DNA of 64,000 bases from Frigoribacterium sp. PhB24. Lineage in GTDB: Bacteria; Actinomycetota; Actinomycetes; Actinomycetales; Microbacteriaceae. The stretch spans positions 124,001 to 188,000 of the forward strand of contig NZ_RKIC01000009.1 in the NCBI RefSeq assembly GCF_003755185.1, read 5' to 3'. Positions 15,183 through 29,927 of this stretch are shown here, piece after piece. Below the pieces are notes generated by a model. It saw only the letters and a list, made by a program, of their open reading frames with translations, did not search any database and was not told where the DNA came from. Made by a program: the position numbers and the translations under genes. The stretch's first letter is position 1. Every line of letters starts with the position of its first letter.

Positions 15183-15473
15183 CCGACGAGCCTACCGAGG
15201 GTCGGGCCCGACGCAGGACCCACCGTGACGCGCGAGCGCGACGGCGGCGACGATGCGAGGAGGCGCGGTGAGGTCCCCGATCCCGCCCTCGACGTCTCCG
15301 GTCAGCACACGGTGGTGAACAGTGCAGGGTGCGCGGTCACCGGTGATCGGTGCGGGGCTGAGTGGTGACGACGTTAGTCGTGGCGCTGCCCTCCGCGCCT
15401 GCAGGGTGACCGGGATGACCGCCGGTCTCGGTTCGTGCTCGCCCCGGTGACGTCTACCGACTCACCGCGCTGG
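15183..15473. other. Intergenic region without a recognisable gene
   Basis: About 290 bases between the tmk start and the DIP1984-family stop. It contains one GGAGGCGCG copy at 15259 and likely the tmk promoter. No convincing coding frame, RNA or hairpin was seen. It is the last GGAGGCGCG copy before the foreign island. Confidence 0.4.
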
Positions 15474-15938
15474 TCAGTTCTGCAGGTCGGCCTCCCAGTT
15501 GGTCTTCTGGATCTCGACGTCGAGTTCGCGGAGGTCCTTGGCGAGCGCGTCGGCGCGGTCCCGCAGCTCGGCGACGGGCAGGGCCGAGAACATGCGCAGC
15601 TCGCTGCGCAGCTGTCGGTAGCCGCCCGAGGCGCCGCGGGCCGCGTCCGACGCGGCCACGAGCAGGGCGTGGGTGCTGCGCAGGGTCTCGCGTCGAGCGA
15701 GGGCGGCGGTCATGGTGCTTCCGTCGCCGAGGATCGTGCGGGCGTTGGTGAGGTTGATGCGGACGACGAGCGACTCGAGCACGTCGAGGGTGTCCACTGC
15801 CTGGCGCAGCAGCTCGGCGGCGTCCTCGGTGGGCTCCTCGCCTTCTTGGTAGCGCGCGTTCGCGGTGACGCGGTCGCGCAGCTGGTCGACCCGGCGCTGG
15901 GCGTCGGATCGCTGCAGGAGGGCTTCGGCGAGCTTCAT
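15474..15938 (-). CDS. DIP1984-family conserved protein
   Basis: Uncharacterised actinobacterial protein of 154 residues, mostly alpha-helical and probably coiled-coil: heptad-like stretches rich in Leu, Arg, Glu and Ala run through most of its length. The signature is MKLAEALLQRSDAQRRVDQL at the start and VRINLTNARTILGDG in the middle. The ATG at 15938 is chosen because it gives the family's conserved N-terminus; an upstream in-frame ATG at 15971 adds a non-conserved leader. It marks the left shoulder of the foreign island, whose first repeats begin about 95 bp upstream of its start. Confidence 0.85.
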   Translation of the reverse strand: MKLAEALLQRSDAQRRVDQLRDRVTANARYQEGEEPTEDAAELLRQAVDTLDVLESLVVRINLTNARTILGDGSTMTAALARRETLRSTHALLVAASDAARGASGGYRQLRSELRMFSALPVAELRDRADALAKDLRELDVEIQKTNWEADLQN

Positions 15939-16031
15939 GGTGAGCGATCCTACGCAGGTCGGGTGCGTCACGTGTCGTGCGTGTCACCGGCGCCTGTTCG
16001 CCGGTCATTCATTGGGACACCTGCCCGGGTC

Positions 16032-16096
16032 GTTCTTGGCCGGCGGAAGCCGATTAGTTCCTGGCCTGCGGAGGCCAATTAGTTCCTGGCCTGCGG
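16032..16096. repeat. 25-bp tandem direct repeats at the island's left edge
   Basis: Two full 25-base units (16032-16056, 16057-16081) and a third partial unit (16082-16096) follow head to tail. The common part is GTTCCTGGCCTGCGG followed by AGGCCAATTA or a variant. Each unit holds a short inverted repeat (GGCCT/AGGCC). Placement just upstream of a serine resolvase gene suggests a res site or the multi-repeat end of a transposable element. Confidence 0.7.
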
Positions 16097-16160
16097 ATTC
16101 GCGTTTTCCTGTCCCGCAAAAAGGCCTGGTGATGCGGGGTCTAAAAGCTACAGGCATCTG

Positions 16161-16732
16161 ATGCTCATCGGATACGCGCGGGTGTCGACCTCGGGACAAG
16201 ATCTCGCAGCACAACGTGACGGTCTCGCAGCTCTGGTTGTTGACGATCAATACGTGCATGTTAACCACGGGCTCTCGGGCACGGCTCGAGCGCGACCCGG
16301 CCTCCGCGAAGCGTTGGCCGCATGCCGTGCCGGTGACGTAGTAGTCGTCACGAAGCTTGAGCGCCTCGCCCGATCACTCCGCGAGGCCACCAACTTTGCG
16401 GACGAGCTCACGAAGAAGGGTGTCTCACTAAACCTCGGGGGAGCGGTCTACGACCCCAACGATCCCGTTGGGCGGCTCCTTTCCAACGCCCTCGGCATGG
16501 TGGCCGAGTTCTAAGCCGACCTCATCCGTGCCCGGACGGAGAGGGCATGGCGATCGCCAAGGCCGCCGGCAAGCTCCGAGGCCGGAAGCCCAAGCTCACC
16601 CCCTTGCAGGAGAAGCACCTCGTGCAGCTGCTTCGTGCTGGCGAACACACGAGTAGCGAGATCGCCGACCTCTTCGGCGTCGCCGGGTCCACGGTCTATC
16701 GGGCTATGAAGAGGGCCACTCGAGAGCCGTGA
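16161..16732 (+). pseudogene. Serine recombinase (Tn3-type resolvase), disrupted
   Basis: Site-specific recombinase that would resolve cointegrates or move its element. Residues 1-117 carry the catalytic domain: Ser9 in IGYARVSTSGQD, then LVVTKLERLARS-like and the NALGMVAEF helix. An in-frame TAA at 16512 replaces the Glu codon expected after EF. Downstream, the DNA-binding helix-turn-helix (EIADLFGVAGSTVYRAM) is intact but in a different frame, entered near 16541. The two lesions mean the protein is probably inactive and the island fixed in place. Confidence 0.85.
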
Positions 16733-16799
16733 GTTGCTTCGGGCTCATGTGCACTTGCTCGGTCGCAGGTAAGGGGATGCCTGAGTCGCGCGCAGCGGC

Positions 16800-16805
16800 T
16801 ATAAA
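16800..16805 (+). promoter_or_regulatory. AT-rich -10-like box before the NACHT gene
   Basis: TATAAA stands out in an AT-rich patch (TATAAAATG) 51 bases before the TTG start of the NACHT NTPase. No clear -35 hexamer is visible. The assignment rests on composition and position. Confidence 0.4.
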
Positions 16806-16855
16806 ATGTTCCTACCTGGTCCAACTTGGACTCGGTTTAGCCAGGGGGTCATACG

Positions 16856-19135
16856 TTGACTACGCCGTTCGAATCTGGGCCGGATTTTGAACTCAGGGGC
16901 TTGGCCCTAGCTCGCGCACTTCATGACCCTCTGGGTGTCCAGGGGGCTGTCATGTTTCGCGCCCGGGAGCGAGACGGTCTGTTTGTCAATCATGAAGAAA
17001 TTCACGCCTACGAATTCACGACCCTGGGCCAGAAAGACAAGGCCGTCAAGGATGGTGAAAAGCTCGCAGAGCTTCTGGCCGCAGTTGGTGGACTCTCAGA
17101 CAATACGTTCAAATCTCGGACGGGTTGGTTCGTAACAAGGGACGAACCTACCGCCGATCAGCGATCAGCAGTGATGGCTATTGCCAAGGCACGAAGCGAG
17201 CGAATTCACGCAATTAGCATCGCTGTCCTTCATCAACGCATCTGCAACTCGGAGATGTACCTGCAAGCTCGGGGTAACGCCCCATTCGGAAGTATCAGCT
17301 ACAAGTCACGTCTGGACAGCGCGCCTCAGAACGTTCCTGTGCAGCTTGTAGGTCCTGGGGCGGCGGGCTTGCTCTCGTTGGAAGCCATGACCTCTCGTTT
17401 GCAACAAGGTGGGCGGGCACTTCTCGTCGGTAACTATGGAGTCGGTAAGAGCCACACGCTGCGTGAGCTGTACGGGCAGCTTCGCAAATCACACTTTAAG
17501 AGCGGGAAATTAACTCCCTTTCCTGTCCACATCAATCTGCGTGACTGCGCTGGCCTCCGGACGCCGGCAGAGATTCTGCGGCGCCATGCAGAAGAAGTCG
17601 GATTTGAGCATGCGGATGGTCTCATTTCTGCCTGGCGCGCCGGTTCGTGCGTGCTCCTTCTTGACGGCTTTGACGAAGTCGTCCCCAGTCGGTGGCTCGG
17701 AGGAGCTGTTGACCTCCGCACAGTTCGTTGGGAGGCGCTCAGCCCTATACGTCGACTCGTAAGCGAGACACCACCCCATGCGGGCATCATCGTCGCCGGA
17801 AGATCACACTATTTTTCGGGTCAATCGGAAATGGTTTCAGCTCTCGGGTTCTCCGCACTCGACCAATTCAGTGTCCCGGACTTCGACGAAGATCAACTTC
17901 GCGAGTTCTTCCGTCAGGCGGGTGTCGAATGGTCAGTTCCCGACTGGGTACCGATGCGCCCCTTGCTGCTCGGATACCTCATCGCAATCGACGCGAGCGA
18001 CGCTGAAAGTGTCGCCGGCTCCGTCTCCAGGTCGGAGGGCTGGCGACTCTTCATAGAGGCGATCTGCGAACGTGAAGCTCAGATGTTTTCTGCTGTGCGT
18101 CCCGAGACAATCAAAAATATTGTCTCGAGGGTGGCCACCCTTGCCCGTTCTCGTTCAGACGTCACCGGCCCTGTCGATATGGATCTACTGCGGTCGGCCT
18201 TTGTCGCAGTCAATGGTCGTCAGCCGGACGAAGAGGGAGTTCAGCTTCTAATGCGCTTGCCCGGCCTCGCAGTCGCTGATCCAAGCGACGAGGCTGAAGT
18301 TCGGCAGTTCGTTGATCGGGACCTGGCTGACACGGCTTATGGCCTAGATCTAGCTGCATACGCCGTGGATCCATTCGAGGAGCTACATCCTCTAGGGTCC
18401 GTTGCGTCTTGGGTCGCAGCTGCTAGCGATTTAGCCATTGAGGTGGCGGCCGGAGTTCTCCTCAACCTCCAACTTTCTGTGGGTACGACTCTTGCCGCTC
18501 TGTCGGCACGCGAGAAAGCAAGTCAGTTCGATGCGGTTATGGCCGATCTCATTCGTCTGGCAGTCGAGCTGCCCTGGGATGGACGAAAGCTAACCAAGTC
18601 CTACCTTGTCTCCGGTGTCTACTTCGAGCAGCTAGTCCTTAGCGACCACCCTCTCTTTCAAGTCAGCACCCTTCAGAACTGCGTTGTGGAGCGACTTGAC
18701 CTCAGCGGCCTGGACGAAGGCAGTTCAATTCCTCATTTCGAGAAGGCTCTCGTTGGGTTTATCGACGGAGTTGCGTCACTACCGGACTGGCTTGCGTCCC
18801 ACTTCGCCAGCTGCGAGATCGACCGCTTTAGTGTCGCAACACAGACGACCGCGGGAATTATGACTCTTGGCATTGATCGCGAGTCCCGAATTGCCCTCTC
18901 CATTCTGAAGAAGATATTCGGCCAGCGCGGCTCGGCTCGCAAAGAAGGTGCTTTGAGCCGAGGTCTCAGTCTTAGCGACCGCCCTGCTGTTCCAGCTGTC
19001 GTAGAAGAGCTTATTTCGCAGGGCTGGATCTTTAGAACGTCGTCGGGCCATGAGACTCTTTACGCAGGTGTCAAAGGTAGGCGGCGCGATGCTAATCGGG
19101 TTCTCGACTCTCCCGCCGATTTCAAGCTGCAGTAG
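16856..19135 (+). CDS. NACHT-type STAND NTPase, putative anti-phage protein
   Basis: Predicted signal-transduction NTPase of 759 residues. The Walker A is GNYGVGKS (residues 192-199) and the Walker B is VLLLDGFDEV (266-275), with the DGxDE form typical of NACHT. The N-terminal 170 residues contain Asp40, Glu53 (IHAYEFTT) and Lys60/62 in a spacing that may mark a PD-(D/E)xK-type nuclease; this is a guess. The C-terminus looks like a winged helix. The start is TTG at 16856 after AGGGGG. Codon use and GC are lower than in the flanking genes. Neighbours are a dead resolvase and an OLD nuclease. Bacterial NACHT proteins are known phage sensors; the role here is inferred. Confidence 0.75.
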   Translation: MTTPFESGPDFELRGLALARALHDPLGVQGAVMFRARERDGLFVNHEEIHAYEFTTLGQKDKAVKDGEKLAELLAAVGGLSDNTFKSRTGWFVTRDEPTADQRSAVMAIAKARSERIHAISIAVLHQRICNSEMYLQARGNAPFGSISYKSRLDSAPQNVPVQLVGPGAAGLLSLEAMTSRLQQGGRALLVGNYGVGKSHTLRELYGQLRKSHFKSGKLTPFPVHINLRDCAGLRTPAEILRRHAEEVGFEHADGLISAWRAGSCVLLLDGFDEVVPSRWLGGAVDLRTVRWEALSPIRRLVSETPPHAGIIVAGRSHYFSGQSEMVSALGFSALDQFSVPDFDEDQLREFFRQAGVEWSVPDWVPMRPLLLGYLIAIDASDAESVAGSVSRSEGWRLFIEAICEREAQMFSAVRPETIKNIVSRVATLARSRSDVTGPVDMDLLRSAFVAVNGRQPDEEGVQLLMRLPGLAVADPSDEAEVRQFVDRDLADTAYGLDLAAYAVDPFEELHPLGSVASWVAAASDLAIEVAAGVLLNLQLSVGTTLAALSAREKASQFDAVMADLIRLAVELPWDGRKLTKSYLVSGVYFEQLVLSDHPLFQVSTLQNCVVERLDLSGLDEGSSIPHFEKALVGFIDGVASLPDWLASHFASCEIDRFSVATQTTAGIMTLGIDRESRIALSILKKIFGQRGSARKEGALSRGLSLSDRPAVPAVVEELISQGWIFRTSSGHETLYAGVKGRRRDANRVLDSPADFKLQ

Positions 19136-19220
19136 CATCGGGGCCTTGCATTCGGTGCGCGTGCCCGCTTGGGGATCTGTCAGCGGGCAAGGACTTGCTG
19201 CAGACTTCTAGGCTCACAAG

Positions 19221-19688
19221 ATGACTGTTCGTGTTCGCCCGGTCGTCGCCCGTGACGAGTCGCAGTGGTCCGTGCTCTACGCCGGCTATCGCTCGTTCTA
19301 GAAGTTGCCTGAGGACGGCGACGCCGTCGCCGTAACCTGGCAGTGGGTAGTCACGGGCGCCAATGGACTGATCGGCCTCGTCGCGACCGATTCAGACGAC
19401 GCGCTGCTCGGCCTTGCCAATCTCAGGCGCTTCGCCCGGCCCTCGACCGCCACTGCCGGGCTCTACCTCGAAGACCTCTTCACCTCGCCAGCGTCGAGGG
19501 GAACAGGTGTTGCAACGGTACTCTTACGGGAGGCTGCAGCTGCCGCCTCCAGAGAGGGAGCGAGTGTCGTCCGGTGGATCACAGCGGCTGACAACGCACC
19601 AGCCCGGCGTGTAGACGACGGCGTTGCAACCGCAACTCCCTGGGTGACCTACGACATGAAGCCAGCGCTGCAGCCGGGGGCCCAGTAG
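19221..19688 (+). pseudogene. GNAT-family acetyltransferase, interrupted by a stop codon
   Basis: From the ATG at 19221 the frame reads MTVRVRPVVARDESQW and is stopped by TAG at 19299, where a Tyr codon is expected. The same frame then continues to 19688 with the acetyl-CoA region (YLEDLFTSPASRGTGVATVLLREAA) and a typical C-terminus. The rest of the frame is intact, so the damage is one recent nonsense change. A TTG at 19305 could restart a 127-residue fragment, but it would lack the first strand and helix. It lies within the island between the NACHT and OLD genes. Confidence 0.85.
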
Positions 19689-19934
19689 CCCAAGTAATTG
19701 CAACCCCGCTGCGTCCCGATAGACGATCGGCGGGCGGGCGGGCGTCGGCGGGGTCTGTCTTGATACTGACCTTCGTGGTCGCCGATGCCTCTGCGGTTGC
19801 GAGCCAGATTCGCGAGACGCTGCCGGCGTCGCATCGGTCTGGGAGTTAGCCAGCATGAGGAGGTGTTCCGCATCCCTAGGGTCGCGCGACTCCTTGCTAG
19901 AACATACGCCAGTGGGTGCGCTCGAGCCAGCTAC

Positions 19935-22355
19935 TCAGCTTGATTTCGTCGACGCCGTGTTTTTCTTTGGGGCCGGACTACTGGCCGTGCTCTCTACGGG
20001 TGCAGGTGTGACTGCGGCCGACGGGTCAACACGAGTGTCGTCCTGGTACTGCAACCGGTCCAATTGCCCGAGAGCGGCCACGGCATTTCGGAACTCGTCG
20101 AAACGAGGAACACGAGGGTGCGCACGATCTTCGAGCTCGAAATTACGCTCGATTTCCGCCAGCGCCAATCGGGCCTGATCGGAATGCGCGTCCTTGGGCA
20201 TAGCGAGACCGACCTGGCGGAGCACTCGTCCAGCGTCGTATTTCGTGATTCCGGTGCCGACCGGGTGGTCGCGGAGGAAGCCCTGGATATGGCGAGCAAG
20301 CTGATCGTTTGCGCGTTCGTCGAACTCGTCATCGGCTGCATCCTCGAGGCGCTCGGCGAGATCACGAAGAAGGAGAGAGAATCGGCGGCGCAACTCATCC
20401 GCCCCGTCGAGGTCAGCTGAGATGTCGAGCAGCTTGACGATTTCTCTCGCGAATCCGGCCTTCTCGACGTGTTCGTCGGGGAACACTTCCGCGACGCTGT
20501 CTTCGATTGCGTCCCACAGGCTGTCCTTCTGCTGAGCACGATTCTGAATGCTTTCCACCGAGAATTTCGCTCCGTCCTCCTCTGAAAGTTCGACGAACCG
20601 GGCGATGTTATTTAGAGCGGCCCGTCGAGCGATTGCGACAGGAACGAGATCCTCGATCTCGATTGGTGTGGTGTCCCAGTCCGTGTGAATGTCACGCCCC
20701 GAAGCCCAGGTGTCGATCCGGACAATGTAGGCGTCTTGCAGAATGCGTTGCTTGCGCATGTCTCCGCGCTTGAGGACACGTTCTGCTTGTTGGCCGGCAG
20801 TGTCTCCATCAAGAAGAGCAACGCACGCCGGTTTGACGGTGTCGCGTCCCCTGGCGAGGTACACCATGTACGGAACCCCGTCGGCGCCGCCGCTTCCAAC
20901 GATGGTTACTTTGTTTAGATCAAGGACCGAGGCTGTGCTCTGCTCACGATCGGAGATGTGTGAGGATAGCCCCGCAAGTAGGACTTGATCTCCGGCGCCT
21001 TCGACGAACAGGTTCTGCCCGCCGATGAACGCCGTTTCCGCTACGTAAGCGCCCAGCGACGATCGAAGGGGTTCGTAGCGGTTATTCGCCGCATCCTTCA
21101 CGACACGGGTGCCCTCTTCATCTGCGCCCTTGTCGAGGACACGAATGCGCTGGGGGGCGTTCTTATCGATCAGGAACGGCGAGTGGGTGACGTACACGAC
21201 CTGCCCGCCCTGGCCTCCGTCTTCGGGTTTTGAGTAGTCGTGCAAGATGCGCAGGAGGTCTTGCTGGCCCACGCTGGAGAGGTACGCGTCGGGCTCGTCG
21301 AGCAGCAGAATGTCCGATCCGTCGCCGGCGAGTCGGTGCGCGGTGAGCTGGACGAAGTAGCTGAGAAAGAACCGTAGGCCTTGGCTGCGTTCCTTGAATG
21401 AGTACGTCGACGCAGTCCGGTCCTGAATCGTGAGGGCGATCTCGTGTTCTCGGGCTTCGACGAGAAGGTCAAACTGCTTGTCCTGGGTCCACCAGCGCTG
21501 AATGTTGAGATTCTCTTTGATGGCCGCGTTCATGCGGCCAACGAGTCCTTCGACATAACCCTCTCGGCCGTCCGCCAGACCCAGTTGCAACTCAACGAAG
21601 GACGCAGGTGCGATTTTTGCGGCGTCAACGAGCAGCTTCCTCGCGAGCTCGAATTCAGCATCCTGACCAGCCCTGCTCAAGGTAGTGCCGGTTTCGGTGC
21701 CGAAGATCAAGCCCACGAGTAGGCGGCCGAGACTGGCTTCGCCTTTATCAGAGGCGTCAATCCCATCCAGCAGTTCAGCGCGTTGCGACCGTTGGAGCGC
21801 GCGGCGGTCTTGGCCGGTGAGGCGTCTAATCGAAACGCTGTCGGGGATCGCAAGGTCGGTCAACATTTCGAACACCCCTGGCAACCGGGCTTCGATAACG
21901 ACTAGATATTCCTGGGAAATCGAGACTCGCTGGCCATCAACAACCAGGAACGCAGGGCGGTTGCCGGGGCGGAAGAGGGCAAACCGAGACACGCCCTGCA
22001 ATGCGGCGAGGGCCACTGGGGCTTCGTCTGCTTCCAATTCAAGCCAGGCACCAAATTCCGGAAAGCGCAGCTGATCGACCTGAACCGAGTACTGCTCCGA
22101 GTAACGACAGAAGTCAGCTCGATCGATGGCGGCGACTCCGAGCGCGGACTTAATCGCCCCCAAAAGGTGGCTCTTCCCGGACTCATTTGCGCCGACGATC
22201 GCGGTCACATTCCCATCGATGGGAATGCGTACAAACGGATACCAGGGTCCCTCCTGATCTTCCCAAGCCTCGCGCTCCGCGTTGGGTCGAGCCTTCAGCT
22301 CGAAGTCGAAATTGAACGACTTGTAGAACCGGACATCTATGCGGGTCAACTTCAC
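19935..22355 (-). CDS. OLD-family ATP-dependent endonuclease (ATPase + TOPRIM)
   Basis: Predicted ATP-regulated nuclease of 806 residues. An ABC-type ATPase comes first: Walker A GANESGKS (residues 55-62), signature-like FKERSQGLRFF and Walker B ILLLDEPDAYLS. The TOPRIM domain follows: FVEGAGDQVLLAGL supplies the Glu and ALLDGDTAGQ the DxD. A roughly 250-residue C-terminal part is unassigned. The GTG at 22355 is preferred because GGAG lies 7 bases upstream; the frame is open back to a GTG at 22415. No GajB-like helicase is adjacent, so this is not a standard Gabija pair. It faces the NACHT gene across the island. Confidence 0.85.
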   Translation of the reverse strand: MKLTRIDVRFYKSFNFDFELKARPNAEREAWEDQEGPWYPFVRIPIDGNVTAIVGANESGKSHLLGAIKSALGVAAIDRADFCRYSEQYSVQVDQLRFPEFGAWLELEADEAPVALAALQGVSRFALFRPGNRPAFLVVDGQRVSISQEYLVVIEARLPGVFEMLTDLAIPDSVSIRRLTGQDRRALQRSQRAELLDGIDASDKGEASLGRLLVGLIFGTETGTTLSRAGQDAEFELARKLLVDAAKIAPASFVELQLGLADGREGYVEGLVGRMNAAIKENLNIQRWWTQDKQFDLLVEAREHEIALTIQDRTASTYSFKERSQGLRFFLSYFVQLTAHRLAGDGSDILLLDEPDAYLSSVGQQDLLRILHDYSKPEDGGQGGQVVYVTHSPFLIDKNAPQRIRVLDKGADEEGTRVVKDAANNRYEPLRSSLGAYVAETAFIGGQNLFVEGAGDQVLLAGLSSHISDREQSTASVLDLNKVTIVGSGGADGVPYMVYLARGRDTVKPACVALLDGDTAGQQAERVLKRGDMRKQRILQDAYIVRIDTWASGRDIHTDWDTTPIEIEDLVPVAIARRAALNNIARFVELSEEDGAKFSVESIQNRAQQKDSLWDAIEDSVAEVFPDEHVEKAGFAREIVKLLDISADLDGADELRRRFSLLLRDLAERLEDAADDEFDERANDQLARHIQGFLRDHPVGTGITKYDAGRVLRQVGLAMPKDAHSDQARLALAEIERNFELEDRAHPRVPRFDEFRNAVAALGQLDRLQYQDDTRVDPSAAVTPAPVESTASSPAPKKNTASTKSS

Positions 22356-22600
22356 TGTCGCACTCCATGAGTATCGTTCGGTATTTTGGAGAACCGTACC
22401 CGATAGCGCCGACACTCGACGAGCAGTTTGCGTGCCCGTTAGCCGATCGCTGATAGACCCCGTCTGAGACCTGCGGCTGCGGCTTCGGTGGAGGTCAGGA
22501 TGGGGACGAGGTGCCCCGAAGTGTTCTGTCGTGAAGGTGTCGGGTGCCTGTCGGGTCGGTGTCGTGGACCTCGGGGCTGGTCGTTCCTAGTGTGAGGTTC

Positions 22601-23098
22601 ATGAACGAGACACGGATCGTCGATCTCCGCACCCAGGTGGGTTGGACCCAGGAACGCCTCGCTGACGAGAGCGGCGTGACCGTCCGCACCGTCCAGAGGC
22701 TCGAGGCGGGCAACGAGGGGAGCCTCGACACGCTGTCTCGGGTGGCGACGGCGTTCGGTGTCCCGGTTCGTGATCTCTTCGTCACCGTCGCTGAGGACGG
22801 CTACGGCCGCTCGGTCACCGCCCTCGATGAGCGAACGAGTCGCCAGCAGGAACGGCGGGGCCGTGTCGAGGAGGGCTTCCGAGCCTTGTACTACGGGGTG
22901 GGCGTGCTCTTCACGATCGCCGTGGTCGTCGCAGTCGCCACCGACGTCGTGCCGAACGTGGCCATCTTCTTGATTCCCGCGTACTGGATTGCCGGGTGGC
23001 TGCTGTCGATGTTCCTGTTCCTCGTCGTCCTCAGCCCGCGCCTGGACCGCGCCTATCCCCTCTCCCGTGCCGCCCCGGACGAGGCGACGAGCGGGTAG
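22601..23098 (+). CDS. XRE-family regulator with two C-terminal membrane helices
   Basis: A 165-residue protein with an HTH domain at residues 4-62 (WTQERLADESGVTVRTVQRLE) and two hydrophobic segments at about 99-118 and 122-145, so it is a membrane-anchored DNA-binding protein. The ATG at 22601 with GAGG just upstream is chosen over a longer frame. It sits at the right shoulder of the island, where composition returns to the high-GC host pattern; whether it belongs to the insert is unclear. The target is unknown; membrane-anchored XRE proteins usually regulate their own neighbourhood. Confidence 0.85.
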   Translation: MNETRIVDLRTQVGWTQERLADESGVTVRTVQRLEAGNEGSLDTLSRVATAFGVPVRDLFVTVAEDGYGRSVTALDERTSRQQERRGRVEEGFRALYYGVGVLFTIAVVVAVATDVVPNVAIFLIPAYWIAGWLLSMFLFLVVLSPRLDRAYPLSRAAPDEATSG

Positions 23099-23151
23099 GC
23101 ACATCGTTTCGCCGGGATACGGGTGTCCTGTCGACCTGCGAAGCTCGGGTC

Positions 23152-23712
23152 ATGTCGTGGCCCCGGGCTGAAGCCCTCCGAACGGATCGTCTCTCTCTGG
23201 AGCCGCTCGCCGTGGAGCACGCGAGCGAGATGGTGGTCGCTCTGGCACCACAGGATCTGTACCGGTTCACGGATGGGGAGCCTCCGACGCTCGAGGAACT
23301 CGAAGCGCGCTACCGCCGTCAGTCGCGGGGTCAGTCCGAGGATGGACGTGCCGGGTGGTTGAACTGGATCATCCGATGTGCTGGGCGTGGGCGGGCCGTC
23401 GGATTCGTCCAAGCGACGCTCACCCGCGAGGGCGCTGACCTCGTCGCTGATGTCGCGTGGCTGGTCACGGCCTCGGAACAGGGTCGTGGTCTCGCTGTGG
23501 AGGCGGCGACAGCTGTCGTGACGTGGCTGACCTCGATGGGTGTCGGGCGTCCTCAGGCCTACGTCCACCCCGACCACGCGGCGTCAGCCCTGGTGGCCGA
23601 ACGGCTCGGGCTCGTACCCACGTCGACAGTCGTCGACGACGAGACCCTCTGGGAAGCCGTCATCGCTCCCAGGATGCAGCGGCACAAGGGCGTCCGTCAG
23701 CCGATCATCTAG
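23152..23712 (+). CDS. GNAT-family N-acetyltransferase (RimJ/RimL type)
   Basis: Predicted acetyl-CoA-dependent acetyltransferase of 186 residues. The N-terminus LRTDRLSLEPLAVEHASEM and the region VAWLVTASEQGRGLAVEAATAVVTWL (acetyl-CoA loop) match the RimJ/RimL group that modifies ribosomal proteins, amino acids or antibiotics. The substrate cannot be told. The ATG at 23152 gives this conserved start. Its TAG stop shares the bases CTAG with the stop of the convergent small membrane protein at 23709. Confidence 0.85.
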   Translation: MSWPRAEALRTDRLSLEPLAVEHASEMVVALAPQDLYRFTDGEPPTLEELEARYRRQSRGQSEDGRAGWLNWIIRCAGRGRAVGFVQATLTREGADLVADVAWLVTASEQGRGLAVEAATAVVTWLTSMGVGRPQAYVHPDHAASALVAERLGLVPTSTVVDDETLWEAVIAPRMQRHKGVRQPII

Positions 23713-23852
23713 CGGGGCCTCTCGGGCGGATCAGGAGCCAGTTGCTGCTCTTCCTCGAACGCCTTCAGCTTCCTAAGCTCGGCCCAGGGGTAGAAGCCGA
23801 TCCAGGCCACCGACGCGATGGCGGCCCCCATGATCATCGAGCTCGTGTCCAT
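23709..23852 (-). CDS. Small single-pass membrane protein
   Basis: A 47-residue protein with one membrane helix (about residues 5-22, SMIMGAAIASVAWIGFYPW) and a charged tail (ELRKLKAFEEEQQ...). The frame is open and has ATG and TAG, and the hydrophobic-then-charged layout is coding-like. The stop overlaps the GNAT stop in a shared CTAG. No known family was recognised, so the function is unknown; it could be a small regulatory or assembly peptide. Confidence 0.5.
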   Translation of the reverse strand: MDTSSMIMGAAIASVAWIGFYPWAELRKLKAFEEEQQLAPDPPERPR

Positions 23853-24014
23853 CCTTCGACGGTGCGTGCGATACGTGCGGTTCGTCGGTCGGGGATCAGC
23901 CTCGTGGTGGAGTCGGGGCTCGTCCGGCCATCGCGATCGGTCGCCGGACGGCAGTGCCGTGCGTGCTCGGGCCACCCGGTGCGGCGTCCCAGCCCTGCGG
24001 CGCATCATGGGCTC

Positions 24015-24539
24015 ATGCCCGCCTTCCGTCGCCCGCCCCGCCCCGCCCACCCCGTCCGTGTCGAGCCCGGGCCGGGCCAGGAATCCGTCTGGGACTACCC
24101 GCGACCCCCGCGGGTCGAGCCCCGGAACGAGCGCGTCGTCGTCCGCCTCGGTGGCGTCGTGGTGGCCGACACGACGGCCGCGATCCGCGTGCTCGAGACG
24201 AGCCACCCGCCCGTCTACTACCTGCCGCGCGCCGACTTCGCCCCGGGGGCTCTGTCGCGCGCCGAGGGCCGCAGCCTGTGCGAGTTCAAAGGCCAGGCCG
24301 GCTATGTCGACGTCTCCGGCGGCGGCGTCACCGCCCGGCGCTCCGGCTGGTTCTACGCGGAGCCCTGGCCCGGTTACGAGTCGCTGGTCGACCACGTCGC
24401 GATCTACCCCGGCGCGATGGACTCGTGCGAGATCGACGGCGAGGTCGTCCAGGCGCAGGAGGGCGACTTCTACGGCGGCTGGATCACCGCGAACCTCGTC
24501 GGCCCGTTCAAGGGCGCGCCCGGCACGATGGGCTGGTGA
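24015..24539 (+). CDS. DUF427 domain protein
   Basis: Conserved protein of 174 residues with the DUF427 fold: VVVRLGGVVVADTTAAIRVLETSHPPVYYLP, then LCEFKGQAGYVDV and VAIYPGAMDSCEIDGE, all hallmark segments. The function is not established. The ATG at 24015 gives a Pro-rich leader before the domain. A DoxX-like membrane protein follows 33 bases later on the same strand, suggesting co-transcription. Confidence 0.9.
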   Translation: MPAFRRPPRPAHPVRVEPGPGQESVWDYPRPPRVEPRNERVVVRLGGVVVADTTAAIRVLETSHPPVYYLPRADFAPGALSRAEGRSLCEFKGQAGYVDVSGGGVTARRSGWFYAEPWPGYESLVDHVAIYPGAMDSCEIDGEVVQAQEGDFYGGWITANLVGPFKGAPGTMGW

Positions 24540-24572
24540 CGGCCGGGCCCCGGACAGGAGCAGACTGGCCGG

Positions 24573-25013
24573 ATGCCGAAACGTCCCCGCCCCCGTCCCA
24601 CGTCCCTCGCCCGCACCCTGGGCCGCGTCGCCCTCGGCGGTGCCCTGATCTTCGCCGGGACGAGCCACCTGACCTTCGCCCGCGAGCCCTTCCAGGCGCA
24701 GGTTCCCGAGTGGCTGCCGCTGGACGACGACTTCGTCGTGCTCGCGTCCGGTGTGGTCGAGATCGGCATCGGAACGGCCCTGGTCGTCGCCCCCAAGCAC
24801 CGCGTGACGGTCGGCTGGGTCGCCGCGGCGTTCTTCACCGCGATCTTCCCCGGCAACATCTCGCAGCTCGTCACCCACACCGACGCGTTCGGCCTCGACA
24901 CCGACGGCAAACGTGCTTTCCGCCTGATCTTCCAGCCGCTGCTCGTCCTGCTGTCGCTCTGGTCGACGGGCGCCTGGCGCGACCGCCGCAGCATCGGTCG
25001 CCGCGCGAAGTAG
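24573..25013 (+). CDS. DoxX-like membrane protein
   Basis: Membrane protein of 146 residues with about four hydrophobic segments (VALGGALIFAGTSHL; FVVLASGVVEIGIGTALVV; VGWVAAAFFTAIFPGNIS; LIFQPLLVLLSLW). The pattern GxxLIFAGxxHL and FPGNISQ is shared with the protein at 39074 (LGGSGLLHLAKP; FPANVSMAL), so the window has two paralogs. DoxX-type proteins are linked with redox stress or sulfur metabolism; the role here is unknown. Confidence 0.8.
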   Translation: MPKRPRPRPTSLARTLGRVALGGALIFAGTSHLTFAREPFQAQVPEWLPLDDDFVVLASGVVEIGIGTALVVAPKHRVTVGWVAAAFFTAIFPGNISQLVTHTDAFGLDTDGKRAFRLIFQPLLVLLSLWSTGAWRDRRSIGRRAK

Positions 25014-25046
25014 CCGCGACTGGTTCCCGACCCCGGGAGGCGCGGC

Positions 25047-25637
25047 TCAGCCCGAGAGGGCGGCCACGACCACCTCGGCGTCGGGGAACCACCTCGTGTA
25101 GTGGTCGGGGTCGGCGTTGACCTGGACGGCGTGCGCGGCCTGGGTCGGCGTCAGGTCCTTCCAGCCCGGGATCGACACGAGCTTGGTGAAGAAGCTCGTC
25201 GCGGCGGTGTACGGGTCCATGCGCTGCTCGTAGGTGCCCCACAGGCCGTTGTCGCGCTGCTGGAACAGCCCGCGGCTGTCGGGCCCGACGGCGTCGCCGT
25301 AGTCGATGTTGCGCAAGCTCGACTCGCCCATCGCGGTCATCACGCCGATCGCCTGGGTGTGCTCGCCGATGCCTTGCGCCCGGGCCGCCAGCATGATGTA
25401 GGCGGCGTTGACCAGGCGGTCCTGGCAGTAGCCGGCGACGGGCCCCGCCGGCACCTCGATGTCACCGACCATCACCGGGTCGACCTCGGGGCACGCCGGG
25501 ACCGGCGTGGACGTGATCGCCGTGACGCTCTCGTCGCGAGGCGCCGTGAGGGCCGAGACGACCAGGGCGATCGCGACGACGAACGCGACGAGCCCGACGC
25601 CGAAGACGACGGAGACGACGATCAGCACGCGGCGCAC
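25047..25637 (-). CDS. Membrane-anchored lysozyme-like peptidoglycan hydrolase
   Basis: A 196-residue protein with an N-terminal membrane anchor (VLIVVSVVFGVGLVAFVVAIALVV) and an extracytoplasmic domain. The core MTAMGESSLRNIDYGDAVGPDSRGLFQQ matches the transglycosylase/lysozyme-like domain, with Glu in GESSLRN as the likely acid. The C-terminus (QAAHAVQVNADPDHYTRWF) matches the partial LysM protein at 63488, so the two are paralogs. A cell-wall turnover role is inferred. The stop codon is followed after two bases by CGCGCCTCC on the coding strand. Confidence 0.8.
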   Translation of the reverse strand: MRRVLIVVSVVFGVGLVAFVVAIALVVSALTAPRDESVTAITSTPVPACPEVDPVMVGDIEVPAGPVAGYCQDRLVNAAYIMLAARAQGIGEHTQAIGVMTAMGESSLRNIDYGDAVGPDSRGLFQQRDNGLWGTYEQRMDPYTAATSFFTKLVSIPGWKDLTPTQAAHAVQVNADPDHYTRWFPDAEVVVAALSG

Positions 25638-25923
25638 GGCAGGCCTCCTGATGGTCGGGTGGCGTGGCGATCAGGGGCGTCGACCGGCACGGAAGTCGTC
25701 GTCGAGGATAGGCGATCTCGTCGGCAGTTCCTCCCGCGTGGGCTGGGCGGCCGGTGGGACTCCCTCCGAATGCCCTGGCAATCCGCCGCCGAGATGCCGG
25801 TAACGTTGCCCGCCGTCGACCCGACCACTCGGGCCGCGGCAGCCGGGCACCGCCCCTCCGTGGCTCGATCGCCGAGGCGCCCGTCCGACCGGCCGGCGCC
25901 CGAGATCCAGAGGAACGTCGTTC

Positions 25924-27474
25924 ATGGGAACCCCACCCACCCCTGCCCGCGAGACCCGTCCCGACCGCCCGGCCCGCGCCTCCGGACGGCGGCGCCCGAG
26001 GCGCCTGCGCGTCGACGACGTCACGGTCGTCGACCCGGCGATGATGAAGCGCGCCATCGGCGGCACCGTCGTCGGCAACACCATGGAGTGGTACGACGTC
26101 GGCGTCTACGGCTACCTCGCCGTCACGATGGGCCGGGTCTTCCTGCCCGAGGCCGACCCGTCGCTGCAGATCCTGTTCAGTCTCGGCGTCTTCGCCTCGA
26201 CCTACGTCGCGCGTCCGCTCGGCGGGGTCGTCTTCGGACGTCTCGGCGACCGGGTCGGACGCCAGAAGGTGCTCGCGACCACCCTGATCCTCATGGCGGG
26301 CGCGACGTTCCTGATCGGCGTGCTGCCCGACTTCGCCGCCATCGGTGCCCTCGCCCCGATCGCCCTCGTCGTCCTCAAGCTGCTGCAGGGCTTCTCGACC
26401 GGCGGCGAGTACGCCGGGGCCACGACCTTCGTCAGCGAGTACGCGCCCGACAAGCGGCGCGGTTTCTTCGCGAGCATCCTCGACCTCGGCAGCTACCTGG
26501 GCTTCGCGCTCGGTGCCGCCGTCGTGTCGGTGCTGCAGCTGCTGACGACCGAGCAGCAGATGCTCGAGTGGGCCTGGCGCCTGCCGTTCCTGCTGGCCGG
26601 CGTGCTCGGTGTGGTCGCCATCTACTTCCGCCTGAAGATCGAGGAGTCGCCCGCGTTCCAGGCCACCCAGGACGCGCAAGAGAGCAAGGTCGGCGAGATC
26701 GCCGACGCGCAGGGCCGTCCGCGCAACACCCTGGCCCTCATCCGGCAGCACTGGCGCCCGATCGTCATCGCGATCGGTCTCGTCGCCGCCTCGAACACCG
26801 TCGGCTACGCGCTGACCAGCTACATGCCGACCTACCTGACCGACTCGCTCGGCTACGACCCGCTGCACGGCACGCTGCTGACGATCCCGGTGCTCGTGCT
26901 GCTGGCCCTGCTGCTGCCCGTGGCCGGACGCCTGAGCGACCGCATCGGTCGACGGCCGGTCATGTGGCTCGGCGCCGCGTCGGTGCTGCTGCTCGCCCTG
27001 CCCGCGTTTCTGCTGATCGGCCTCGGCAGCATCGGGACGACGCTCGCCGGTCTCTCACTGCTGGCCGTCAGCGTGGCGCTGTGGGTGTCGAGCCAGGCGT
27101 CGTCGCTGCCCGCGCTGTTCCCGACGGCGAGCCGTTACGGCGCGATGGGGGTGTCGTACAACGTCGCGATCGCCGTGTTCGGCGGCACCACCCCGCTGAT
27201 CATCCAGGCGCTGCTGCAGGCGACGGGCAACGAGCTCGTGCCCGCGTTCTTCCTCATGGCCACGTCGCTGGTCGGTGCGGTCGCGGTCTGGTTCATGAAG
27301 GAGTCCTCGCAACGCCCGCTGCCCGGCTCGATGCCGAGCGTGGCCACCGAGGCCGAGGCGCACGAGCTCGTCGAGACGCAGGACGCCAACCCGAACATCG
27401 ACCTCGGCGACCTGCCCTTCGTCGACGCCGAGCCCGCCGTCACCGCCGACCCCGCGCAGAGGACCGAGCGCTAG
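25924..27474 (+). CDS. MFS transporter, metabolite:H+ symporter (ProP-like)
   Basis: Inner-membrane symporter of the MHS group, 516 residues, related to proline/betaine transporter ProP and other dicarboxylate carriers. Twelve hydrophobic segments follow a charged tail of about 40 residues; hallmarks are NTMEWYDVGVYGYLA, GRLGDRVGRQKVL and GGEYAGATTFVSEYAPDKRRGF. The substrate is uncertain: proline, betaine or an organic acid. The ATG at 25924 follows AGAGGAAC. The stop shares CTAG with the convergent gene at 27471. The 286-base upstream gap holds a TAACGT box (25801-25806) but no gene. Confidence 0.88.
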   Translation: MGTPPTPARETRPDRPARASGRRRPRRLRVDDVTVVDPAMMKRAIGGTVVGNTMEWYDVGVYGYLAVTMGRVFLPEADPSLQILFSLGVFASTYVARPLGGVVFGRLGDRVGRQKVLATTLILMAGATFLIGVLPDFAAIGALAPIALVVLKLLQGFSTGGEYAGATTFVSEYAPDKRRGFFASILDLGSYLGFALGAAVVSVLQLLTTEQQMLEWAWRLPFLLAGVLGVVAIYFRLKIEESPAFQATQDAQESKVGEIADAQGRPRNTLALIRQHWRPIVIAIGLVAASNTVGYALTSYMPTYLTDSLGYDPLHGTLLTIPVLVLLALLLPVAGRLSDRIGRRPVMWLGAASVLLLALPAFLLIGLGSIGTTLAGLSLLAVSVALWVSSQASSLPALFPTASRYGAMGVSYNVAIAVFGGTTPLIIQALLQATGNELVPAFFLMATSLVGAVAVWFMKESSQRPLPGSMPSVATEAEAHELVETQDANPNIDLGDLPFVDAEPAVTADPAQRTER

Positions 27475-28013
27475 AGCAGCTCGGCCCGGTCGGCGAGGTA
27501 CGCGGCGAGGTCGCGGACCTCGTCGGCCGCCGTGCCCCAGCGCACGAGGGCACGCCGGTCGCGGACGAGGAGGCGCTGCTCGCCGCCCTGCAACGCCCCG
27601 GTCGACAGGTCCACCGGTTCGTAGCCGTAGTTGACGACCTCGCCCTCGGCGAAGTGGCCGCGCACGGCCGCCCGGCGCTCGGCCTTACGCTGCTCGACCT
27701 GGGCGGACAGGTGCTGGGACCGGGTCGGCGTGACCGCCCTCGTGATGCGCCCGGTCTCGAAGACCCGGCCGTCGGCGGCGAGCAGCAGGACACCGAGGCG
27801 CCAGGCCCGCCCGGCGGGTTCGAGGGACTCCGCCGTCTTCACCACGACGATGCGTCGGGCCGGCTTGTAACGGGCGAGGGCCTCCGTCCGGGCGTCACGG
27901 GCCGCGAGGTCGGCGGCCGCGTGCTCGACGAGGCGGCGCAGCGACGCGGCAGCCTCGTCGTCGGACGGGGTCTCGGGGGCCGGCACCGCGCCTCCTGCGG
28001 TCGGGACGCTCAC
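27471..28013 (-). CDS. Conserved hypothetical actinobacterial protein
   Basis: Cytoplasmic protein of 180 residues with no recognised catalytic motif. The Ala/Glu/Arg-rich N-terminus is helical, followed by a beta-rich segment (ARRIVVVKTAESLEPAGRAWRLGVLLLAADGRVFETG) and a further domain (VVNYGYEPVDL). Codon pattern is typical of the host. Its stop overlaps the transporter stop within CTAG. It lies 19 bases after the UPF0303 gene on the same strand and could be co-transcribed. The function is unknown. Confidence 0.6.
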   Translation of the reverse strand: MSVPTAGGAVPAPETPSDDEAAASLRRLVEHAAADLAARDARTEALARYKPARRIVVVKTAESLEPAGRAWRLGVLLLAADGRVFETGRITRAVTPTRSQHLSAQVEQRKAERRAAVRGHFAEGEVVNYGYEPVDLSTGALQGGEQRLLVRDRRALVRWGTAADEVRDLAAYLADRAELL

Positions 28014-28032
28014 GGGATCGTCGGCGGTCGGG

Positions 28033-28512
28033 TCAGGCGTCGTAGCCGTGGTCGAGGAAGTCCTCGATCACGTCGACGACGAACGCGTGGTCGTCGGCCT
28101 GCGGCAGGCCCGACACACCGGCCGAGCCGACGACGCCGACACCCGGGACCCGCACGGGGAAGAGCCCGCCGTGCGCGGCGTAGAGACCGGTGTCGAGCCG
28201 GGACTTCTCGTCGAAGCTGGCGCCCTGCACCCGGAACGACTCGCCCACCCGGTACGAGCTCTGCCCGTAGCGCTCGACGACGCGGGCCTTGCGGTCGAGC
28301 CACTCGTCGTTGTCCAGGCTGCTGCCGGGGAGGGCCGCGTGGAACGCGCGCTGTCGGCCGTGTCGCACGGTGACCGCGACGGCCAGGTCGCGGCGTCGGG
28401 CCTCGGCCAGCAGGTGGGCACCCAGGTCGAGCGCGACGTCGAGCGTGAACCGCCGGAAGACCAGACGCTCTTCTTGCCGGATGAGGGTCTGCAGCAGGGT
28501 GTCGTCGGTCAT
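28033..28512 (-). CDS. UPF0303 family, heme-degrading-domain-like protein
   Basis: A 159-residue protein of the UPF0303/HbpS-like fold. Characteristic segments are EERLVFRRFTLDVALDLGAHLL, AFHAALPGSSLDNDEWLDRKARVVER and FPVRVPGVGVVGSAGVSGLPQADDH. Related proteins bind heme or act as extracellular sensors, but this one has no signal peptide. The ATG at 28512 is used because upstream sequence is Pro/Ser-rich and not conserved. The physiological role is uncertain. Confidence 0.85.
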   Translation of the reverse strand: MTDDTLLQTLIRQEERLVFRRFTLDVALDLGAHLLAEARRRDLAVAVTVRHGRQRAFHAALPGSSLDNDEWLDRKARVVERYGQSSYRVGESFRVQGASFDEKSRLDTGLYAAHGGLFPVRVPGVGVVGSAGVSGLPQADDHAFVVDVIEDFLDHGYDA

Positions 28513-28645
28513 CGGTGGTCTCCTGGAGGAAATGGGCGGACTGCACGGGGGAGCACCGGCGCCTCGGCGCGGCACGGTGCGAGCCTAGGCCCGGCCCCCG
28601 TCAACGGGCTGGTGGCGGCCCGGCCGCGCGACGGACCGCGGGGCG

Positions 28646-29869
28646 TCAGGCCGACGCGGCGACGCAGGGCGAGCCCTGCCGGGCCAGCAGACCGCAGTAC
28701 ACGCCCACGAGGTCGGTGGCCGAGCGCGACCACGGGTGGTCGAGCGCGTGGGACCGGGAGGCGCGCGACAGCCGGTCGCGCAGCCCCTCGTCCGCGAGCA
28801 CCTGGGTGAGGGCGCGGGCCCAGGTCCGCGGATCGCGGCTCGGGAGGACGATGCCCGTGACGCCGTCGACCACCGACTCGCGGAGGCCGCCCGACGCCGC
28901 GGCGATCACCGGGACCCCGCTCGCCGCGGCCTCGAGGGCGATGAGCCCGTAGGTCTCGGAGTGCGAGGGCACGAGCACGAGCGCGGCGTCCCGCAGCAGC
29001 GCGGCGAGGCCCGATCGCGAGCGCGGGCCGAGGAAGTGCACGGTGAGGTCGAGCTCGTCGCTCAGGGCGCTCAGCTCGGCCTCGTAACCGGCGAACTCGG
29101 TCGAGGCGCCGCCGGCGATGACGAGTTCGGGGCGCACCTCGGCGGGCACGGTGGCCACGGCGCGGATCGCCAGGTCGGGGGCCTTGAGGGGTTCGAGCCG
29201 GCCGGCCACGACGACGTACGGGCGCACGGGCGTGGGGTGGTCGGCCGCCGCGGGGTGGAACAGCTCGCCGTCGACGCCCGGAAGGACGACGTGGACCCGG
29301 TCGGCCCGGCCACCGAGACGGGACGTGACGGTCTCGGCCTCGGCGTGACTGATGGCCACGACGGCGTCCGACTCGCGGGCCAGCAGCTCTTCGCCGGCGA
29401 TGCGGCCGGGCGACTCGGCGCGTTCGCCGTGCGAGAGGGGCGTCGAGTCGTGGGCGGCGATCGAGTGGAAGCTCTGCAGGTGGGGCACGCCGAGGGCGCG
29501 GGCCACGGGCAGGGCCGCCATGCCCGAGAACCAGTGGTGCGAGTGCACGACGTCCCAGGGCCCGAGGTCGGCCAGGCGGTCGCGGAACTCGTCGACGAAC
29601 AGCTCGTTGCGCCCCTTCGTGACCGGCTCGGCCGGGCCCGCGTCGACGAACCTCAGCGTGACACCGGGCGCGAGCGGGTGGCTCGCCGGCTCGTCGGGGG
29701 ACGACCGTCGGGTCAGGATCTCGACCTCGTGCCCTGCGGCCCCGAGCGCCTCGGCCTGGTTGCGCACGACGACGTTCATGCCGCCGACGTCACCCGACCC
29801 GGGCTCGGCACCGGGGGACGTGTGCAACGACACGAGGGCGATGCGGAGCGTGGGGGAGGCGGTGGTCAC
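28646..29869 (-). CDS. Glycosyltransferase family 4, MshA-like
   Basis: Retaining GT-B glycosyltransferase of 407 residues. The N-terminal GDVGGMNVVVRNQAEAL and C-terminal ETYGLIALEAAASGVPVIAAASGGL (EX7E motif) match MshA, which transfers GlcNAc to inositol phosphate in mycothiol synthesis. Other actinobacterial GT4 enzymes share these features, so sucrose-phosphate synthase-like or glycolipid roles are not excluded. A short hairpin (29892-29919) lies upstream, after the patatin gene's stop codon. Confidence 0.75.
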   Translation of the reverse strand: MTTASPTLRIALVSLHTSPGAEPGSGDVGGMNVVVRNQAEALGAAGHEVEILTRRSSPDEPASHPLAPGVTLRFVDAGPAEPVTKGRNELFVDEFRDRLADLGPWDVVHSHHWFSGMAALPVARALGVPHLQSFHSIAAHDSTPLSHGERAESPGRIAGEELLARESDAVVAISHAEAETVTSRLGGRADRVHVVLPGVDGELFHPAAADHPTPVRPYVVVAGRLEPLKAPDLAIRAVATVPAEVRPELVIAGGASTEFAGYEAELSALSDELDLTVHFLGPRSRSGLAALLRDAALVLVPSHSETYGLIALEAAASGVPVIAAASGGLRESVVDGVTGIVLPSRDPRTWARALTQVLADEGLRDRLSRASRSHALDHPWSRSATDLVGVYCGLLARQGSPCVAASA

Positions 29870-29927
29870 CAGCCGAGGCTACCTGCCCGGTGGACCCACG
29901 GCCTGCCCGTGGGCGGTCCGGCGGCGC

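Follow-up and report, generated by a model that had tools for sequence, protein, structure and literature searches.

Two genes in a low-GC island

The window considered here is the whole stretch of 64,000 nucleotides from Frigoribacterium sp. PhB24 that was analysed, and all positions given are positions in the window. Between 16 and 23 kb it holds an island with two large genes, one for a NACHT protein and one for an OLD-type protein in which an ABC ATPase is joined to a TOPRIM domain. The two genes converge, with the remnant of a GNAT acetyltransferase gene between them, and both are intact and carry the motifs of their families. The genes and their parts are as follows.

16856..19135, plus strand: NACHT protein, 759 amino acids, intact, TTG start; Pfam NACHT E 3.1e-7, 30.8 bits (cut-off 26.7)
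16856..17290, plus strand: N-terminal Mrr-like PD-(D/E)xK domain, about residues 1-145, from column counts, Mrr_cat matches and profile comparison
17420..17917, plus strand: NACHT domain, residues 189-354 (Pfam)
18500..19135 (limits approximate), plus strand: C-terminal part with a beta-solenoid-like stretch and a conserved end, presumed sensor; weak Pentapeptide_4 and GntR matches
19935..22355, minus strand: OLD-type protein, ABC ATPase plus TOPRIM, 806 amino acids, intact; AAA_21 E 3.1e-11, AAA_15 E 1.6e-8
20802..21002, minus strand: TOPRIM core, E452 to D518; E452, D456, D516 and D518 invariant in five of five members
19938..20633, minus strand: C-terminal extension of the OLD-type protein, about residues 575-806, mostly common to five aligned members

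The NACHT protein and its N-terminal domain

An earlier note on this DNA had pointed to a NACHT protein with a P-loop at G192-S199 and a DGFDE Walker B motif, and both are indeed seen (G192..K198-S199 and residues 270-274) in a protein that exceeds the Pfam cut-off for NACHT. Relatives were gathered by scanning a collection of contigs with an alignment of four relatives, which yielded 76 loci; 41 of these hold a full-length relative (700 amino acids or more), 26 of the 41 have at least 5 kb on both sides, and most of the last 29 loci are weak partial matches. A set of 42 proteins, with the window's among them, could be aligned from end to end; GxGKS and DGFDE are invariant in the set, and 40 of the 42 match Pfam NACHT (E up to 0.1).

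The N-terminal domain of the window's protein is marked by E12, D40, E53-x-T55, K62, D66 and K69. D40 is found in all 42 proteins, K62 in 41, D66 and K69 in 39 each and E53 in 36, the last being replaced by methionine in five proteins and by alanine in one. The methionine occurs in L041, L043, L044, L045 and L051 (four Burkholderiales and one Methylomonas), where the N-terminal domain may be inactive. Threonine stands at position 55 in 37 of the 42, threonine or serine in 41 and alanine in one. With D40 and E53, the window's protein has the metal-binding acidic pair D...(D/E) of PD-(D/E)XK nucleases. When a profile of 30 of these N-terminal domains was compared with one of 11 Mrr_cat domains, 104 columns aligned with a score of 26.3, as against 8.2-16.1 in six controls (E 9e-4 for a single comparison), and the alignment sets D40 on the Mrr aspartate and E53-x-T55 on Q-x-K. 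Mrr_cat is also over its cut-off in one member, L065 (21.8 vs 21), and is found below cut-off in another, L034.

In other families of this fold, threonine occupies the site of the motif lysine, whose role is presumed to have passed to a lysine in the next helix (PMC1913061); the same article mentions a fusion of Mrr with NACHT. K62 and K69 fit this migrated-lysine pattern and may act in this way.

The C-terminal part gave fainter signals. Pentapeptide_4 and GntR each match 4 of the 42 members at E up to 0.1, with Pentapeptide_4 falling at 552-611 in L018 and L057, below its cut-off. Compared with solved structures, the profile of the NACHT alignment met pentapeptide-repeat proteins at positions 565-638, weakly (E 0.012), and ABC transporters over the P-loop (best E 0.0043), while a sequence search of solved structures with the window's protein alone gave no match. 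We presume this part to be the sensor, and our guess is that its conserved end is winged-helix-like. No description of a beta-solenoid plus winged-helix sensor in bacterial NACHT proteins was found in the open-licence literature, where absence proves little.

The OLD-type protein

The open reading frame of the second gene runs from 19935 to 22415 on the minus strand. Its start was set at the GTG at 22355 by three of four relatives, the fourth (L016) having a translation that begins a few residues later. These relatives are 37-42% identical to the window's protein, and in the five aligned members the GANESGKS Walker A motif, the DEPDAYL Walker B motif and the acidic TOPRIM residues are all invariant, which bears out the earlier description of an ATPase-TOPRIM nuclease gene convergent to the NACHT gene, the nuclease activity being a prediction. 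The long C-terminal extension described at the same time is likewise present: about 230 residues follow the TOPRIM domain and are mostly conserved in the five members, with K632, G634, F635, A636 and E638 invariant, and Pfam gave no family above cut-off over this region. Pfam OLD-like_TOPRIM reaches 13.0 bits in the window's protein, under its cut-off of 23.2, and of the PADLOC models that match the core the best are mad3 (51.0 bits) and Old (49.6 bits, E 6.5e-14), ahead of AriA (43.7 bits) and GajA (40.7 bits).

By its gene context, the protein is placed in Class 1 of the OLD family as defined in PMC10568477. It combines the ABC ATPase (Walker A and B motifs) with the acidic TOPRIM residues, and it is encoded by a single gene without a conserved partner, as the neighbours differ among nine loci, our own included; the neighbours were judged by eye and from annotation, and two of the loci, on Rhodococcus plasmids, are near-copies. 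YbjD, also a single-gene OLD protein, gave anti-phage phenotypes upon induced expression (PMC13261556).

The closest OLD relative found is 73% identical and lies in a genome of the same family (G556). At E 1e-15, 8 of the 396 genomes surveyed from the phylum contain a match, nearly full-length in three of them, our own included. Relatives also occur on plasmids of Rhodococcus and Deinococcus; next to the Deinococcus one, the annotation gives a DNA methylase and a restriction S subunit. A scan of viral sequences for OLD relatives returned 59 pattern matches, none of which was confirmed. The relative in G596 (L098/L116) has one internal TAG in the matched stretch, so that the gene may be broken. 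In G347 (L015:5824-10247), an OLD relative, followed by a large methylase-like gene, is convergent with a P-loop NTPase gene that resembles the KAP type, both judged by eye; here, too, an OLD gene adjoins an NTPase gene, though one of another kind.

Distribution of the NACHT family

The NACHT gene is rare near home, being found in 1 of the 396 phylum genomes (our own) and in 6 of 398 genomes of the host's family (own included; E up to 1e-20). Its closest relative, 71% identical, is in G626, and others lie in Protaetiibacter mangrovi (L026) and in a Glaciihabitans bin (L021), both Microbacteriaceae; in the tree, the window's protein groups with other Microbacteriaceae (100/98 with L020). The family as a whole spreads over Actinomycetota, Pseudomonadota, Bacillota, Bacteroidota, Chlorobiota, Planctomycetota and Myxococcota, and extends to a phage and a plasmid. 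The phage is Pseudomonas phage Haddon, where a protein annotated as hypothetical (L017:13749-16049) shows 31% identity over 97% of the protein length and its gene sits between methylase/excisionase and endolysin genes; the plasmid is from Erwinia. A further relative is found on a viral contig, behind open reading frames that by eye resemble phage tail genes.

The composition of the relatives' loci points to mobility as well. The NACHT gene is the lowest-GC (guanine plus cytosine) gene of at least 300 amino acids in 45 of 49 loci, with 7.4 expected, and it lies at least 3 points of GC below its surroundings in 47 of the 49 (median 13.7 points), as do 24 of the 314 other genes there; some of the 49 loci are close relatives, so these counts are not fully independent.

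No conserved partner seen for either gene

The earlier note had suggested a composite or two-component defence locus, and had proposed a survey of whether homologs of the two proteins co-occur in other genomes. The survey was run and came out against a pair in each sample. OLD relatives, sought with five queries at E up to 1e-3, were found in none of the 76 NACHT loci, nor in L011, L017, L018, L019 or L121-L124, while the same search recovered every locus that had been fetched for OLD. Conversely, no NACHT relative was found in the eight OLD loci. Among the 398 genomes of the host's family, to judge by their handles the same set in both surveys, OLD is present in 4, our own included (E up to 1e-30), so that three others have OLD, five others have NACHT and only the window's genome has both. 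Since the chance expectation of shared genomes is 0.04, the family survey speaks against an obligate pair and is blind to a weak tendency. The closest relatives repeat the pattern, as the 71% NACHT relative and the 73% OLD relative each lie in a genome where the other gene was not found.

The NACHT gene showed no recurring neighbour: in 49 loci, with 90 nearest neighbours in all, the most frequent Pfam family appears 3 times. Some of the neighbours are of defence type, with HerA, type I restriction and AriAB among the 25 of 72 families listed. Within the island itself, the open reading frames scanned with Pfam gave no helicase, reverse transcriptase or methyltransferase, in agreement with the earlier statement that no GajB helicase, reverse transcriptase or methyltransferase is adjacent. 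Moreover, because the genes converge, NACHT and OLD share no operon.

The island is foreign and fills a variable slot

The features of the island beyond the two genes are listed below.

15962..23984, no strand: whole foreign island, from the empty site in sister genome G789
16032..16097, no strand: left-end tandem repeat with a 25-bp period and 2.6 copies (Tandem Repeats Finder)
16161..16514, plus strand: serine resolvase, N-terminal part only, broken gene; Pfam Resolvase E 1.9e-28
16717..22455, no strand: exchangeable cargo slot, differing from G790 (both edges) and G791 (left edge)
19221..19688, plus strand: GNAT acetyltransferase remnant, in-frame stop at 19299-19301; Acetyltransf_1 E 3.5e-10 for 19305-19685
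22544..23098, plus strand: HTH_3 regulator at the right end; Pfam HTH_3 E 8.3e-12; common to the G790 island
22996..23712, plus strand: right-end GNAT acetyltransferase, probably starting further in than given; Acetyltransf_3 E 1.9e-17; common to the G790 island

The island is foreign DNA, as the earlier note had proposed. In bins of 1 kb, the GC content of the window is about 72% but goes down to 57-63% in the stretch from 16 to 23 kb, and the slot at 16717-22455 has 59.2% GC, as against 71.8% on average, and never less than 68.5%, in windows of the same size outside the island (n=89, overlapping). The two genes are also the most atypical in codon usage among those compared in the window, with distances of 0.218 (NACHT) and 0.170 (OLD) compared with 0.109 for the next gene and a median of 0.072 over 32 rows, in which OLD was entered twice, with two starts, and NACHT was added by hand after failing the gene-picking filter on GC at third codon positions. 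The description of the DNA as lower in GC and atypical in its codons is thus borne out, while the extent that went with it, 16032..22400 (6.4 kb), covers the low-GC stretch and falls short of the island. The empty site sets the island at 15962-23984, that is 8.0 kb, bounded by the gene of a DUF6847 protein and by a right flank at 24000. When the window is compared with L119 by blastn, 15256-15961 and 23985-29910 adjoin in G789, where 15961 joins 23985 with a 2-bp overlap and the flanks are about 90-92% identical.

Two other signs of foreign origin named in the earlier note, a broken resolvase and tandem repeats, were recovered. The resolvase meets a stop at 16512-16514, its remainder lies outside that open frame, and the sister genomes have a longer open copy (189 amino acids in G791 and, with its start unsettled, a 158-amino-acid open stretch in G790). 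A single tandem repeat was found, with a period of 25; expanded to 2.6 copies in the window, it is represented by one similar copy at both sister loci examined. The third sign, the lack of a host 9-mer, had been given without naming the 9-mer; the most over-represented one that we found, GGAGGCGCG, occurs 41 times over the two strands of the window and nowhere within 15259-25036, which fits. Its count is 1.4 times the expectation from its 8-mers, and it looks like a ribosome-binding site. The DNA match of the GNAT remnant to the GNAT region of L116 begins at 19266, upstream of the in-frame stop.

For the site itself, the right flank was sought in 13 genomes of the same genus, our own included, and the DUF6847 gene in relatives. 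Six of the 13 have an empty slot (G789, G558, G503, G650, G608 and G430, with 12 to 344 bp between the flank matches), whereas the flanks are 8 kb apart in the window's genome and 36 kb apart in G790. In G791 the flanks lie on two contigs, each continuing into other DNA; little is told by G747, with its flanks on two contigs, or by G720, G788 and G688, in which DUF6847 was unmatched. The left end of the island is common to G790 and G791 (up to 16707/16716) and the right end to G790 (22456-23748, 92.6% DNA identity). As both ends are shared with G790, the difference comes down to the one stretch that holds NACHT, the GNAT remnant and OLD. We read the island as one of the fillings that a variable insertion slot can take. 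The 36-kb slot of G790 (L118, L125, L126) contains many metabolic-looking or regulatory open reading frames, some by eye resembling thiamine-salvage kinases, and one that resembles a protein kinase, so that the slot is not only for defence. Being empty or otherwise filled in sister genomes, it is a place to seek more such genes in this bacterial family.

Proposed mode of action and alternatives

We propose, with a probability of roughly two in three, that the island holds two independent stand-alone anti-phage genes, one acting as a nuclease-bearing NLR-like receptor and the other as a single-gene OLD nuclease. The roles given to both proteins are the most likely ones in view of their domains and context, and both families include known anti-phage proteins, as had been noted earlier. 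The NACHT protein would be a bacterial NLR-like receptor whose C-terminal part senses a signal of infection; its NTPase would then oligomerise and bring the N-terminal Mrr-like PD-(D/E)xK domains together, and the assembled domains would cut DNA and so stop the infected cell. That oligomerisation, following sensing by the tail, would switch the nuclease on is suggested by analogy with bNACHT25 and bNACHT32, whose PD-(D/E)XK effectors are required for defence and where DNA is degraded once phage is sensed (PMC12169576). At the active site, D40 and E53 may hold the metal, with T55 at the usual place of the lysine and K62 or K69 of the next helix substituting for it. The OLD protein, with its conserved extra C-terminal region, would be an ATP-controlled nuclease acting alone on nucleic acid during infection. 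The anti-phage function, the nuclease activity, the oligomerisation, DNA as the target and the nature of the trigger are all inferred.

Several observations weigh against this proposal. The main doubt about an N-terminal nuclease is the absent motif lysine: the (D/E)xK lysine of PD-(D/E)XK nucleases is found at position 55 in 0 of the 42 NACHT proteins, so that the domain could be an inactive nuclease fold, although K62 may substitute for it, and six family members are without E53. The link to Mrr has its own soft spots, in that Mrr_cat matches only 2 of the 42 members at E up to 0.1, one of them sub-cut-off, and leaves the window's protein unmatched; that L065, alone in exceeding the cut-off, forms the tree's longest branch; and that hhalign gives a probability of only 22.7% for the N-terminal domain and Mrr_cat. 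As to OLD, the TOPRIM domain of YbjD is dispensable (PMC13261556), and nuclease action need not be the mechanism. Finally, one of the 90 nearest NACHT neighbours is an ATPase-TOPRIM protein of AriAB type; from its motif, it is probably the ATPase-TOPRIM protein at L045:770-2374, near a NACHT relative, that gave the match to AriAB (PARIS), in 1 of the 49 loci.

The foremost alternative, which we consider unlikely, is that the N-terminal domain is a catalytically inactive nuclease fold whose part is to bind nucleic acid or a partner, the effector being elsewhere or lacking altogether. Threonine or serine in place of the lysine in nearly the whole family is what such a fold would lead one to expect, and Pfam includes a family named NA-iREase1, a NACHT-associated inactive restriction endonuclease. 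NA-iREase1 is, however, unmatched in the window's genome at E 0.001, and D40, E53, K62, D66 and K69 are among the best conserved of residues 1-150, which would be needless in a dead domain. Slightly less probable still is that the island carries one or both genes as passengers, with functions such as maintenance of a mobile element or, for OLD, a role in repair or the cell cycle like that reported for archaeal Cran1. Some OLD-family proteins are reported to be non-defensive (PMC12796447) and relatives of both genes travel on mobile elements, but the patchy distribution of the two families fits accessory defence better than housekeeping, and a prophage gene that excludes other phages would itself be anti-phage. 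A two-component or composite locus, with NACHT sensing and OLD cutting or the reverse, we reject as very improbable: the genes lie next to each other in the island without a further large, intact gene in between, and the L045 neighbourhood (its link to AriAB being made by motif) is a hint of pairing, yet the lack of co-occurrence in the loci and genomes surveyed, the gene orientation and the GNAT remnant all go against it.

The tempting two-gene defence system thus most probably reflects two genes that came to lie together by chance in an exchangeable slot. What the proposal of two stand-alone genes brings forward instead are two families not set apart in the 2023 PADLOC library: an Mrr-NACHT receptor and a longer Class 1 OLD; the receptor has an unusual active site and tail and ranges from phage to Streptomyces. 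With rather less confidence than in the proposal as a whole, and short of even odds, we suggest that this NACHT family is a so far undescribed kind of NLR-like receptor that travels widely and combines a migrated-lysine Mrr nuclease with a beta-solenoid/winged-helix sensor, and that temperate phages and plasmids may carry it against competitors. As both genes are single, they are easily tested.

Comparison with known systems

For the NACHT protein, no PADLOC class could be assigned: its sole match, to mad8, has an E of 0.013 and covers 40 residues at the P-loop, and mad8 matches 23 of the 42 relatives weakly (best E 4.2e-4). DS-8, a metallophosphatase-NACHT system (PMC13092281), shares the NACHT domain, and the NCBIfam DS8 model matches 5 of the 42 relatives (best E 1.1e-4); its effector is a metallophosphatase, however, and in L036, the one member in which the place of the match was seen, only the NTPase part matches. 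The Mrr restriction endonuclease domain (Mrr_cat) has the same order of core motifs as the N-terminal domain of the window's protein, with Q-x-K where the latter has E-x-T, and the helix lysines K62 and K69 are conserved in the NACHT family. The nearest parallel by description is with bNACHT25 and bNACHT32 of clade 6 (PMC12169576), which have an N-terminal PD-(D/E)XK-type domain, a central NACHT and a presumed C-terminal sensor in a single gene, a plan that the window's protein appears to share. In the window's protein the motif lysine is replaced by threonine. Clade 6 also has an NCH1 domain at the C-terminus, whereas the tail of the window's protein gives only weak pentapeptide-repeat and GntR matches; the name NCH1 is not among the 25 of 33 families listed for the NACHT relatives, nor among those of 20 members scanned singly, the presence of an NCH1 model in the library being unconfirmed.

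On the OLD side, GajA of Gabija (Class 2) has the same ATPase-TOPRIM layout, and the best PADLOC GajA model matches the core at E 2.7e-11. Unlike in Gabija, there is no UvrD-type GajB helicase beside the window's OLD gene, nor, by eye and annotation, beside its eight relatives. For Class 3, that of the retrons, no reverse transcriptase was found among the scanned open reading frames of the island, and non-coding RNA was not searched for. Gabija and retron were both rejected as identities for the protein, as neither partner gene was among the scanned frames. The AriA models of PARIS (AriA/AriB) match the OLD core at E 8.3e-12, less well than Old does, and the AriAB model matches only in part. 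The best counterpart lies in Class 1, with P2 Old, TsOLD and YbjD (PMC10568477, PMC13261556), which share the ABC ATPase, the acidic TOPRIM residues and the single gene. The window's protein is the longer one, having 806 amino acids with about 230 conserved residues after the TOPRIM domain, compared with 552 amino acids in YbjD and 528 residues in the solved chain 6p74.

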